A stretch of 64,000 nucleotides of DNA from Candidatus Methanomethylophilaceae archaeon (GTDB taxonomy: Archaea; Thermoplasmatota; Thermoplasmata; Methanomassiliicoccales; Methanomethylophilaceae), in contig JAFXUX010000027.1 of the NCBI GenBank assembly GCA_017524805.1, positions 1 to 64,000 on the forward strand, in the 5' to 3' direction. Each line of letters starts with the position of its first letter. Within the stretch, counting starts at the first letter, position 1. This document shows positions 40,683 through 55,510 of this stretch, piece after piece. A program made the position numbers and the translations under genes. The notes below the pieces were generated by a model that made no database searches, was not told the origin of the DNA, and saw only the letters and a program-made list of their open reading frames with translations.

Positions 40683-42140
40683 ATGAAGGCGGAGATCCTT
40701 TCCGAGGCTGCTAAGAGAAAGATCCTTTTCTCTCCGGACGCTATGGAGATGATCCTGTCCAACAGCGACCCCATGGCATTCACGAATACCGTATTCTCCC
40801 ATCTGGCTTCGGACATGGTTTTCGTCAGCAAAAAAGACATCATGGATTGCATCGCCGGCGACAGCATAATGTTCCAATCCCCGAAGGAAACGAAGCCCAG
40901 GAACAGATTCACTCCGGACATCCATGTGATAGGCGGGACCGATGTCACCGGAGAATCCACCTGCGAAGGGAAGATAAACGATTTCGCGAACCTGATGATG
41001 AGCAGATTCCAATCCCTGAAAAAAATCCTGATGAAAAACAGGGAGATGGCCTATGCGGTAAGCCTCGAGAAAGCCAAGACGATGAACAGGGACTGCCACG
41101 TGGTCGTCATGATATATGAAAAAAGCACCACGAAGAACGGGCACATCATGCTGTCCGTGGAGGACGACACCGACACGGCCAAAATACTGGTCTCCAAGGA
41201 TTCGCCCCTGATCGACGAGCTCCTGATCGATGACGAGGTCATCGGCGTAGCAATAAAATCCACCGGGAAAAGCAAAGATCTCTTCATAGCCGACAAGATA
41301 ATCTGGCCGGATGTGCCCAAGGGCAACGCGTGGGAGCCGGGGGACCAGACCTCGAAAATCGCTTTCCTCTCCGACGTCCACGTAGGCAGCACAACATTCC
41401 TTGAGCCCGCATGGAAGAGGATGACGTCTTGGCTCAGAGCCAACGCCGAAAAGAACGACATAAATTATCTGGTGTTCCCGGGGGACGTCGTGGATGGCAT
41501 AGGCGTGTTCCCGGATCAGGACAAGGAACTCATCATCGCGGACATCTATGAGCAGTACGAAAAGCTCGCGGAATATCTGAAAGACATCCCCGACGGAATA
41601 AAGATGGTTATTCACCCAGGAAACCATGACGCAGCCCGCCTGGCCGAGCCCCAGCCCGCTTTAAACAAGAAATTCACCGGAGCGTTCGATTCCGATGTCC
41701 TGATGCTCGGCAACCCCGTGTATCTCAGCGTGGAAGGCAGAACGGTTCTCACCTACCATGGGAAGAGCATGGACGACTGGATCGCAGGGGTGCGCGGCAT
41801 GAGCTATGACGATCCCCTGAAAGTCATGCGGTCCATGTGCAAGACCCGCCATCTCGCCCCGATCTACGGCCAGAGGAACGCTCTCGCACCCGAAAAAAGA
41901 GATTATCTGGTCATGGAATATGTGCCGGAGATCTTCGTCTCGGGCCATGTGCACGGCGCAGGGCAGGAGATATACAACGGCATCAGGATGATCAACGCAT
42001 CCACCTGGCAGAGCCAGACCGAATACCAGAAGATGCACAATTTCATCCCGGACCCGGCGATAATGCCTGTGGTAGACCTCGGAGACGGATCGGTTCTGAT
42101 GCACAATTTCATGAGACGATCTTTTTCCAGTGGAAATTGA
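40683..42140 (+). CDS. dp1: DNA polymerase D small subunit DP1
   Basis: 485 residues. The C-terminal calcineurin-like phosphoesterase domain has motifs AFLSDVHVGS, VFPGDVVDG, VIHPGNHDA and FVSGHVHGAG, the 3'-5' proofreading exonuclease of archaeal PolD. An OB fold precedes it. It partners the DP2 polymerase subunit (not in this window). TATA AAATATAG (40655-40662) lies 24 nt before the ATG (leaderless). The stop codon lies inside an ORB-like element. Confidence 0.95.
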   Translation: MKAEILSEAAKRKILFSPDAMEMILSNSDPMAFTNTVFSHLASDMVFVSKKDIMDCIAGDSIMFQSPKETKPRNRFTPDIHVIGGTDVTGESTCEGKINDFANLMMSRFQSLKKILMKNREMAYAVSLEKAKTMNRDCHVVVMIYEKSTTKNGHIMLSVEDDTDTAKILVSKDSPLIDELLIDDEVIGVAIKSTGKSKDLFIADKIIWPDVPKGNAWEPGDQTSKIAFLSDVHVGSTTFLEPAWKRMTSWLRANAEKNDINYLVFPGDVVDGIGVFPDQDKELIIADIYEQYEKLAEYLKDIPDGIKMVIHPGNHDAARLAEPQPALNKKFTGAFDSDVLMLGNPVYLSVEGRTVLTYHGKSMDDWIAGVRGMSYDDPLKVMRSMCKTRHLAPIYGQRNALAPEKRDYLVMEYVPEIFVSGHVHGAGQEIYNGIRMINASTWQSQTEYQKMHNFIPDPAIMPVVDLGDGSVLMHNFMRRSFSSGN

Positions 42141-42145
42141 GGGGT
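42125..42145 (+). promoter_or_regulatory. ORB-like element overlapping the DP1 stop codon
   Basis: TTCCAGTGGAAATTGAGGGG differs from the core of the two origin boxes near cdc6 at one base over 21 positions. It has the same orientation as the right-hand origin box and lies 11.6 kb from the left one. It spans TGA 42138-42140. Initiator binding here is inferred, not shown. Confidence 0.55.
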
Positions 42146-52911: not shown

Positions 52912-53664
52912 TTACATGCAGCAGGAATGGTTTTCCTGGAGGTCTCCCAATGCCTTCTCCCACCTGCCATTCGCCAGGAATGTCTTGTCAGCGTTCGATT
53001 CCATTCTTTTGTACGCTTCATACGGAACTGCGAAGGTCATCTCCTCCGGACGCACAAACTTCCTGACATACAGTTCGGTTGCCCCCAAGAACGCATCCTG
53101 AGTCCCTTTCTCGCTTTCGGCTTTGGGAAGCGCGTACAATTCCTCGCAAGCGAAAGCATGGACCATGTGCACATGAGGGCCGGGAGCGCGATCGTAACCG
53201 ATGAGAGTGGAAAGCGCGGAAATGCGAACGTTGTCGGTGAGGATCGCCACAACTTCTATGGGAGCTCCCCTGGATTCCGCCTTATCCAGAGGTTCCATGA
53301 CGCAATAGTCATTCCCGGTGCCATAAGCCTTCATGAAACCAAGAGAAGCGGATGCGATCTCAGGATCACGATAAAAACCAGCACCGGGCCTGTCATTCAG
53401 ACCGGTGGAATAGATGAATGAAAGGTCTTTGCGATCGGATTCGCCGCCCATTCCCAGACCGTTGTGCGAACCGCCGCAACCCATCTGATCCTTGCGGGCC
53501 GCGATGGTATGTCCTTTTAAAGCAGGAATGAACATGGACTTGAAAACGCAATGGATGCTCTCATCAGGAGATTCAGATCCTTCTGGAGCTTCTGGAACGT
53601 GGTATATTGCTACAAATGGAGTTTCATTACGGAGATAAGCGGATAATTTTCCCATGGATGCCAT
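52912..53664 (-). CDS. DUF169-family protein
   Basis: 250 residues. ETPFVAIYHVPEAPE, CVFKSMFIPALKGHTIAARKD, MGCGGSHNGLGM and GLNDRPGAGFY match the DUF169 (COG2043) family, common in methanogens and of unknown function, with cysteines that may bind metal. The C-terminus SCCM is a further cysteine pair. ATG 53664 lies about 22 nt from a TATA-like AGTATTATTT (about 53681-53690). The origin box lies just upstream of this promoter. Confidence 0.78.
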   Translation of the reverse strand: MASMGKLSAYLRNETPFVAIYHVPEAPEGSESPDESIHCVFKSMFIPALKGHTIAARKDQMGCGGSHNGLGMGGESDRKDLSFIYSTGLNDRPGAGFYRDPEIASASLGFMKAYGTGNDYCVMEPLDKAESRGAPIEVVAILTDNVRISALSTLIGYDRAPGPHVHMVHAFACEELYALPKAESEKGTQDAFLGATELYVRKFVRPEEMTFAVPYEAYKRMESNADKTFLANGRWEKALGDLQENHSCCM

Positions 53665-53702: not shown

Positions 53703-53731
53703 GGCCCCCACCCCTCCATTTCCACTGGAAC
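53703..53731 (-). promoter_or_regulatory. Origin recognition box (ORB), left copy
   Basis: On the minus strand the element starts GTTCCAGTGGAAATGGAGGG and is identical over 27 nt to the right copy at 55482-55510 in opposite orientation. TTCCAGTGGAAA followed by a G-rich tail is the archaeal Orc1/Cdc6-binding ORB consensus. Confidence 0.85.
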
Positions 53732-53733
53732 CA

Positions 53734-53915
53734 GAAAAAAAGATATGGGCAATCGTAGACAGACAGGAAAATACGAGGAAAGGGATAGGAAAGAAGGAAA
53801 ATAAGCGTTGAAAAGAGTGAAAAACAGAATGATGAATAAGATAAAACACGCTTTGAACCGAACGAAATCAGTTTGCTCAATTCAAAGCGGCAATGAAAGA
53901 ATTTTTCCTATGGAA
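53734..53915. other. Purine-rich spacer next to the left ORB
   Basis: 182 bp with strong strand asymmetry: the plus strand is mostly A and G (e.g. GAGGAAAGGGATAGGAAAG) with no ORF. It lies between the left ORB and the cdc6 stop and is a candidate duplex-unwinding region. Confidence 0.45.
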
Positions 53916-55151
53916 TCAGAAGAAAGTCTTCTGTTTCGGAGGCTTGTACATCCAATAATCTTTGAAAGCATCATCGGATTTTATCATGTTGACAATTTCT
54001 TTTGGGGTGCTGAGTTCAATTTCCCTCGTACGACCGGCTCTTCCGAAGGATTTGACCCTTGCATGGACGATTCCAAGCATATCCAGTTCAGAAATCAGAC
54101 CTGCAACCCTTCTTTGGGAAAGCGCAGATTGTCCGATGACTTCGCATATGAATTTGTATTTCGTGAAGACATCCCCGGTTGTCATCGGATTCAGCCCTTC
54201 ATCTTTATTTAATATGACGCTCAGAAGAACTGTCTTGGATTGTATAGTCAAGGTTTTTACAACTTCGGAAACAGCATCGAGTTCGATCTTATTCTTCGCA
54301 GAACGAACATGAGCCGATGTTATCTTGGAATCTCCGTTTCTTTCAGCTATATCCGCAGACATTCTGAGAAGATCCAAGGCGCGTCTCGCATCCCCCATTT
54401 CCTGCGCAGAAAGCGCAGCACAATATGGTATGACATCATCGTCAAGAATTCCGTCATCGAAAGCGAATTTCGCTCTTTCATAAAGGATATCCTGGAGCTG
54501 CTCGACGTTATATGGAGGGAATATGATTTTTTCCTCTCCCAGTCTGCTTCTGATCCTAGGACTGAGGAATTCAGTGAATTTCGCATTGTTGGTTATTCCG
54601 ATCACGGAAACTTTGGAAATCTGAAGGATCTCGTTTATCGATGTGAGATAATAGAAGATGTCTGCCCCATTCTTTTGGAATGATCTGTCTATCTCGTCGA
54701 GAACGATTATGAAGACTTTCTCTTCTTTGTCTATATATTCAGCCAATTCCGCGAAGACTTTATCAATACTCCATCCTGTGAACGGAATCTTCTTGCTGGG
54801 ATCCGTGATTATCTGGTTGGAAATGTTGTATAAGATTCCGTAGGAAGTGTCGACGACTTCGCAGTTCACATAGATATATGCGCAATTGGTCTGATTCGGA
54901 TCGGCTTTTTTCAATTCTTTGCCGACAAAATTCATGACCGCGGTCTTTCCTGTTCCGGTCTTTCCGATTATAAGAATGTTGGATGGTTTGTCTTTGTTGA
55001 GGGCAGGGGCTATTATCTCGACGACTTCGTTGATCTTATCCATTCTATGTGGCAGCTTCTCAGGTATGTAGGATGACTGAAGAATTTTCTTATTCTTCAC
55101 CACCGTATTCCTTTTTTGCATATATTGCGTAAAAATGTTCGGCTCAGTCAT
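53916..55151 (-). CDS. cdc6: Replication initiator Orc1/Cdc6
   Basis: 411 residues. Walker A IIGKTGTGKTAVMNFV, Walker B VFIIVLDEIDRSF, sensor 1 VIGITNNAKF, sensor 2 GDARRALDLLR, and a C-terminal winged helix (SQRRVAGLISELDMLGIVHARV) with the wing KSFGRAGRTREIEL that binds ORBs. It marks origins and loads MCM. ATG 55151 has GGGTAGGG upstream and gives the usual N-terminus; GTG 55199 is an in-frame alternative placed about 20 nt from TTATAAAC (about 55216-55223). Confidence 0.95.
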   Translation of the reverse strand: MTEPNIFTQYMQKRNTVVKNKKILQSSYIPEKLPHRMDKINEVVEIIAPALNKDKPSNILIIGKTGTGKTAVMNFVGKELKKADPNQTNCAYIYVNCEVVDTSYGILYNISNQIITDPSKKIPFTGWSIDKVFAELAEYIDKEEKVFIIVLDEIDRSFQKNGADIFYYLTSINEILQISKVSVIGITNNAKFTEFLSPRIRSRLGEEKIIFPPYNVEQLQDILYERAKFAFDDGILDDDVIPYCAALSAQEMGDARRALDLLRMSADIAERNGDSKITSAHVRSAKNKIELDAVSEVVKTLTIQSKTVLLSVILNKDEGLNPMTTGDVFTKYKFICEVIGQSALSQRRVAGLISELDMLGIVHARVKSFGRAGRTREIELSTPKEIVNMIKSDDAFKDYWMYKPPKQKTFF

Positions 55152-55262
55152 GTCCCTACCCTTTTCATTGGAAATACCTTTTTCCAATTTTCTTTCCACT
55201 CTATCTTTACGTTGTTTATAACGATTTTCAGACAGCGCCCTGATGGTGCTCTGATTGTCCCT

Positions 55263-55285
55263 ATTCCAATGGAAATTTTTCAGGG
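55263..55285 (+). promoter_or_regulatory. Degenerate ORB-like box upstream of cdc6
   Basis: ATTCCAATGGAAATTTTTCA shares TTCCA.TGGAAAT with the two perfect boxes but lacks the G-rich tail. It is in the cdc6 upstream region and could serve autoregulation or origin assembly. Confidence 0.4.
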
Positions 55286-55370
55286 TTTCCGTCGGATCCT
55301 TCTCAGGTCTAATCCATATTAAATAATAGATTCAGGTTACCCTCATTACAATCAAAGGAGGAGCATAACA

Positions 55371-55457
55371 ATGAAAGGATGGCTCACTATCGGCGCTTGC
55401 ATTCTTGGGATAGTCGCGTTCATAGGCGTTCTTTGCCTCATCAACTCCATGGTCTGA
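55371..55457 (+). CDS. 28-residue single-helix membrane microprotein inside the origin
   Basis: ATG 55371 to TGA 55455-55457. The sequence begins MKGWLTIGACILGIVAFIG and continues with hydrophobic residues, one membrane helix with almost no loops. A very strong ribosome binding site (AAAGGAGGAGC) lies 9 nt upstream and a TATA-like ATTAAATAAT lies about 50 nt upstream. These signals make it a likely real gene despite its size. No family known to me. Confidence 0.6.
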   Translation: MKGWLTIGACILGIVAFIGVLCLINSMV

Positions 55458-55481
55458 GCTGCCCCATACCCTTCATGGGGA

Positions 55482-55510
55482 GTTCCAGTGGAAATGGAGG
55501 GGTGGGGGGC
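55482..55510 (+). promoter_or_regulatory. Origin recognition box (ORB), right copy
   Basis: Starts GTTCCAGTGGAAATGGAGGG and ends in a run of G. The first 27 nt equal the left box read on the other strand. It ends one base before an ATG. Confidence 0.85.

Follow-up and report, generated by a model that had tools for sequence, protein, structure and literature searches.

The locus at positions 53,703 to 55,510 of the window, the 64,000-nt stretch of DNA analysed here, is very probably the chromosomal replication start of a rumen-type methane-making archaeon, as judged from the sequence and from comparison with related genomes. The reading favoured here, with moderate confidence, is that oriC consists of a pair of inverted origin recognition boxes (ORBs) of the usual polarity, in which the interval between the boxes has been stretched from ~100-300 bp to ~1.75 kb around the initiator gene cdc6.1. 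The named relatives of the window cdc6 are Methanomethylophilaceae genomes from metagenomes, several from rumen or gut and UBA71 among them, and the host is a Methanomethylophilaceae archaeon close to the genus UBA71. The features of the locus are as follows.

53705-53731, minus strand: distal ORB of 27 nt, 3' of cdc6, with the G-rich tail outward from cdc6; conserved 3' of cdc6 in the clade.
53732-53915, no strand: purine-rich spacer between the distal ORB and the cdc6 stop.
53916-55199, minus strand: orc1/cdc6.1 initiator gene; the ORF runs from GTG 55199, with a probable start at ATG 55151.
55152-55481, no strand: AT-enriched cdc6 leader, adjoining the proximal ORB on the side towards cdc6; a candidate for the duplex unwinding element (DUE).
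About 55154-55174, minus strand: degenerate ORB TTCCAATGAAAAGGGTAGGG, immediately before the probable cdc6 ATG, at the ancestral right-hand box position.
55264-55275, no strand: mini-ORB core TTCCAATGGAAA, the full G tail being absent.
55482-55508, plus strand: proximal ORB of 27 nt, 5' of cdc6, with the G-rich tail outward from cdc6; conserved.

The sequences at 53705-53731 (CCCCCACCCCTCCATTTCCACTGGAAC) and 55482-55508 (GTTCCAGTGGAAATGGAGGGGTGGGGG) form a 27-nt inverted repeat with arms that are 100% complementary and 1750 nt apart, and orc1/cdc6 on the minus strand sits between both arms. The 20-nt core is present in the 64-kb window in two exact copies, and a third copy, at 42125, has one mismatch. 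With up to three mismatches allowed, three copies were found in the window compared with 0.01 expected, and the number of such pairs expected by chance is ~0. Both arms carry the G-rich tail on the side away from cdc6, and the window contains at least two inverted ORBs with outward G tails. These results bear out the sequence-only reading, which had described the same 27-nt element on opposite strands at both sides of cdc6, the boxes directed away from the gene and AT-rich or purine-rich spacers inside them. The spacer is unlikely to be an essential melting element, because the distance between the distal ORB and cdc6 is just 2-50 bp in many relatives. The distal ORB is bordered on its left by a gene encoding a DUF169 protein (52912-53664, minus strand); the mechanical ORF of this gene crosses the ORB, but the real start is probably near 53664.

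The deduced product of the enclosed gene contains AAA+, Cdc6 lid and winged-helix domains and scores above the cut-off of NF001625, placing an initiator gene adjacent to the boxes. Cdc6.1 matches the Cdc6/Orc1 structures 2qby_A and 2v1u over its length, winged helix included, both of which are complexes with origin DNA. Alignments of the window protein to relatives begin mostly around residue 2-21, and ATG 55151 is the probable start of cdc6.1. Two degenerate ORB cores, the mini-ORB core at 55264-55275 and the degenerate ORB at about 55154-55174, were found in the stretch that separates the right box from the start of cdc6, the second of them a possible autoregulatory site. The same interval, inside the bracket, holds a possible gene for a 28-aa membrane peptide (MKGWLTIGACILGIVAFIGVLCLINSMV, 55371-55457, plus strand), which has a good ribosome-binding site and adjoins the proximal ORB.

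An ORB consensus for Methanomassiliicoccales is given in the origin section of Borrel et al. 2014 (PMC4153887), and the origin of ISO4-H5 was likewise assigned at cdc6.1 (PMC5011839). The window boxes match the published consensus, GTTCCAGTGGAAATGG-AGGGGT (PMC4153887), as well as the archaeal consensus, and contain TTCCANTGGAAA followed by a G-rich tail. GC skew was evaluated in 20-kb samples from two complete same-genus chromosomes (G014 and G007), comprising ~25% of each at a resolution of ~80 kb; the skew evidence is thus that of relatives' chromosomes and not of the window's own draft genome. In these samples the skew was mostly positive to the right of cdc6.1 and mostly negative to the left, and the cumulative skew was lowest at cdc6.1 and highest at ~0.53 of the circle. 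Permutation with the origin fixed at cdc6.1 gave p values of 0.015 (G014) and 0.002 (G007), and permutation with the origin free gave 0.18 (G014, not significant) and 0.015 (G007). The signal is weak, coarse and indirect, yet it is at the expected place in both chromosomes and supports the assignment. The skew inversion that the earlier reading had named as a check was therefore found at this resolution. The identity of the locus as an origin, also proposed there, is supported by the consensus match, the cdc6.1 neighbourhood, the skew switch in the two relatives and the conservation of the boxes.

The cdc6.1 loci from 70 genomes of the order were scanned for boxes. The pair encloses cdc6 in 41 genomes, all of the window's family, with a minus-strand box ~215-475 nt 5' of the gene, a plus-strand box 2-430 nt 3' of it and a median inner spacing of 1611 nt. 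The bracket is present in about 38 of 39 testable clade genomes, a count that leaves out two genomes with contigs ending too early to judge; the one exception (G044) is without a clear 5' box. Conservation of the boxes in relatives, which had been put forward as a second check, is thus confirmed within the clade. Both boxes were found at three or fewer mismatches in 28 of the remaining 29 genomes, in each case upstream of cdc6. The outward boxes enclose hflX, a GTPase gene assigned by TIGR03156, in 27 genomes outside the cdc6-enclosing clade, where cdc6 lies just outside, and hflX is still inside the boxes in G038 and G043, which represent two genera of the window's family. Plus boxes of the ancestral type stand at -20 to -200 relative to cdc6 in other families. 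In G052 (G052:C2:251016-251307) both outward boxes lie upstream of cdc6 with just 272 bp between them, a natural compact origin. hflX was not found in the cdc6-enclosing genomes or in G052, for which a search returned just weak GTPase matches.

On the Cdc6.1 protein tree a single branch (support 100/100) separates the cdc6-enclosing genomes from the rest, equivalent to one change. Among the other Thermoplasmata orders searched, one clear hflX-enclosing case (G081) was found; the matches in G089 and G100 were weak, overlapped coding sequence and were not counted. The occurrence in G081, a member of another order, suggests that enclosure of hflX is the older state. As read from the tree, enclosure of cdc6 originated a single time, in a clade that has lost hflX, and the present layout appears to have come about with the loss of hflX, the gene that the boxes had previously enclosed. 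The distribution suggests that, hflX once lost, a right-hand box stood 3' of cdc6 in the ancestor of the clade and the former right-hand boxes 5' of the gene degenerated. The left box of hflX-enclosing genomes usually ends in GGGGTCCCC and the right box in GGGGTGGGG; both boxes of the cdc6-enclosing clade usually end in GGGGTGGGGG. The earlier proposal that the initiator gene is wholly inside the origin therefore holds for the anatomy of the clade, but the enclosure of cdc6 is a derived, clade-specific state, since other families, and two genera of the window's own family, have hflX between the same outward boxes.

The left and right boxes differed at 0.72 of 20 positions within a genome compared with 2.47 between genomes (0 of 5000 permutations). 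When one genome per genus was used, the values were 1.00 and 3.41, respectively (0 of 10000 permutations). The likeness between left and right stops at about 28 nt, the flanks beyond having 8.21 mismatches within versus 8.35 between genomes, which are not different. Lineage-specific variants, among them TTCGCAG (G021), CCACCGG (G037) and CATCGG (G034), recur in both boxes of several lineages. Such co-divergence would fit recognition of both boxes by one protein.

The whole interval in the window, including cdc6, is ~51-66% AT compared with 37-56% in most flanks, with no single sharp element. Third codon positions of the window cdc6 are 51% AT versus 31% in neighbouring genes. The mean excess of third-position AT over neighbours was +0.152 (n = 19) for enclosed cdc6 versus -0.027 (n = 27) for cdc6 outside the boxes (p 6.6e-6), and enclosed hflX had an excess of +0.127, above that of cdc6 of the same genomes (p 1.5e-8), p values which ignore shared ancestry although the state change happened once. 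The AT-richness of hflX may have other causes. Enclosed cdc6 is without AT excess in G021 and G046, and its third-position AT is very low in G004, G008 and G022 as absolute values without a local baseline. The most unstable 60-bp window was inside the bracket in 23 of the 41 cdc6-enclosing loci and 23 of the 29 other loci; within the window's clade this stretch frequently falls in the leader, ~100-220 bp upstream of cdc6 and on the inner side of the 5' box. A wider reading, which can be advanced only tentatively, is that across the order outward ORBs ~1.3-2.2 kb apart act across a gene, the coding sequence of which would be kept AT-rich as a melting zone, the enclosed gene being hflX and then, in one clade, cdc6. 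Several points count against a stretched origin: the spacing of the boxes may simply reflect gene length, the most unstable window is inside the bracket in no more than 23 of the 41 cdc6-enclosing loci, the AT excess of enclosed cdc6 is small or absent in some relatives, and the skew is weak.

According to the favoured reading of a stretched inverted pair, Cdc6.1 would bind both boxes, as suggested by the sequence match, conservation and coordinated divergence, and the bound protein would recruit MCM inward. The DNA would then open between the boxes, the likeliest site being the AT-rich cdc6 leader (~55152-55481) that adjoins the proximal box. The degenerate boxes near the start of cdc6 may provide additional binding sites and may allow Cdc6.1 to control its own gene.

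The main rival holds that the origin is the cdc6 leader alone, comprised of the proximal ORB and the degenerate ORBs, and that the 3' box titrates Cdc6 or regulates transcription. Extra ORB cores in the leader numbered 27 versus 0.95 expected and occurred in 18 of the 41 genomes, with two in the window, in agreement with this explanation, as is the finding that, in Haloarcula hispanica, the ORBs located downstream of cdc6E have a negative effect through titration (PMC3936714). The boxes of G052, a genome in which hflX was not found, also suggest that a compact origin upstream of cdc6 is workable. However, the 3' box is as conserved as the 5' box, changes in step with it and has retained the outward polarity. 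Furthermore, the other 23 of the 41 genomes are without recognizable leader cores, and there the 3' box would be the sole inverted partner. The extra cores are probably the remains of ancestral right-hand boxes, and an origin confined to the leader is considered rather unlikely. A 3' box of little function, retained as a relic or as a copy held by gene conversion of the inverted repeat, is improbable. Short conversion tracts could in principle maintain an identity of 27 nt, but the likeness ends at the edge of the binding module and the boxes are intact across the deep divergence of the clade in the Cdc6.1 tree. Finally, several boxes lie directly after the ends of genes on the same strand (42125, 53711 and contig position 67012), as would terminator-like or regulatory G-rich sites linked to transcription, but the skew switch at cdc6.1 in two relatives, the ORB consensus match and the position of the right-hand boxes upstream of cdc6 in other families make such sites, with an origin elsewhere, a very improbable explanation.

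The host genome is a 1.95 Mb draft of 47 contigs, in which only two boxes (C27:67012 and C47:23983) were found outside the window. Within the window, one box lies outside the bracket pair, at the end of a replication gene:

40683-42140, plus strand: DNA polymerase D small subunit (DP1), a member of the old cdc6-signal peptidase-DP1 neighbourhood.
42125-42144, plus strand: isolated ORB-like box with one mismatch to the window core, overlapping the DP1 stop codon.

A gene order like cdc6-signal peptidase-DP1 was also seen in other Thermoplasmata by inspection of ORFs. The box at 42125 is without the second G run. It and the box at C27:67012-67031 are both at gene ends and directed towards cdc6, 11.6 kb to the left and 11.5 kb to the right of the inner pair, respectively. 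A designed array of symmetric outer boxes was considered and rejected: several relatives scanned have no counterparts at either place, and the symmetry is therefore taken as coincidence or lineage-specific. The right-hand outer box is also present in the very close relative G026. The box at C47:23983 has the second G run and lies immediately 3' of a metallophosphoesterase-like reading frame, and seemingly same-site counterparts are present in two relatives (L180:350-369 and L182:1950-1969); it is possibly a conserved Cdc6-binding site distant from the origin. A common distant box with similar flanks, tens of kb from cdc6.1, was also seen in G025 and G007 (L183:1923-1942 and L190:2070-2089). 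The conserved f6 site, TTCCACAAGAAATGAAGGGG, was set aside as it lies inside a long reading frame and probably reflects coding constraint. The neighbourhood of the second orc1 gene, the product of which is 27% identical to Cdc6.1, was scanned and no boxes were found nearby.

Table 2 of Borrel et al. 2014 lists two inverted ORBs downstream and two direct ORBs upstream of cdc6.1 for 'Ca. Methanomethylophilus alvus' (PMC4153887). As in the window, the ORBs are on both sides of cdc6.1, the consensus has an extended GGGGG tail and a second orc1 gene is without ORBs; unlike the window, which has one full box per side, there are two per side (PMC4153887). The bracket layout, already tabulated for that species, is consequently not new, contrary to what the sequence-only reading had implied. 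The origin section of the same paper makes no mention of cdc6 being enclosed, of relatives with hflX between the boxes or of the co-variation of boxes (PMC4153887). Haloarchaeal oriC1 of Haloarcula hispanica and Haloferax is similar in having inverted ORBs with terminal G-strings, an AT-rich middle and a cdc6 neighbour, and likewise a neighbourhood of GTP-binding protein, cdc6, signal peptidase and polymerase (PMC4010727, PMC3936714). In Haloarcula oriC1 the inverted ORBs carry their G-strings terminally and flank the AT-rich region, the outward direction having been read from the mutated sequences in PMC3936714. Haloarchaeal oriC1 is compact, with all elements in the intergenic region beside cdc6, whereas the window boxes occupy no single intergenic region and have cdc6 between them. 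The presence of ORBs in both cdc6-flanking intergenic regions is shared with oriC2/oriC2D (cdc6E) of Haloarcula hispanica (PMC3528665, PMC3936714). The downstream set of oriC2D is a cluster of 11 ORBs within 722 bp, of demonstrated inhibitory action, whereas the window has a single, well-conserved inverted box downstream of cdc6 and no such cluster was found there. Inverted ORBs also flank the melting region of Sulfolobus oriC1 (ORB3-DUE-ORB2), where they are recognized by Orc1-1, both ORBs are required and the DUE between ORB2 and ORB3 is the site of MCM recruitment (PMC12141716); that origin measures ~130 bp in all compared with 1.75 kb in the window.

The change from hflX to cdc6 as the enclosed gene, the paired divergence of left and right boxes and the AT enrichment emerged from the present comparison and were not found in the open-licence papers searched. 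Overall, the results support the origin predicted in 2014 for gut and rumen methanogens and extend it with skew, order-wide conservation and paired box divergence. A functional stretched interval would challenge the picture of a compact ORB-DUE-ORB unit in Archaea. The order would then offer a natural experiment, with the same boxes around hflX, around cdc6 or, in G052, 272 bp apart, that bears on how far apart Orc1-bound boxes can still load helicases. If the reading of a stretched gene-containing interval is true, the initiator gene lies within the DNA that its own product opens.
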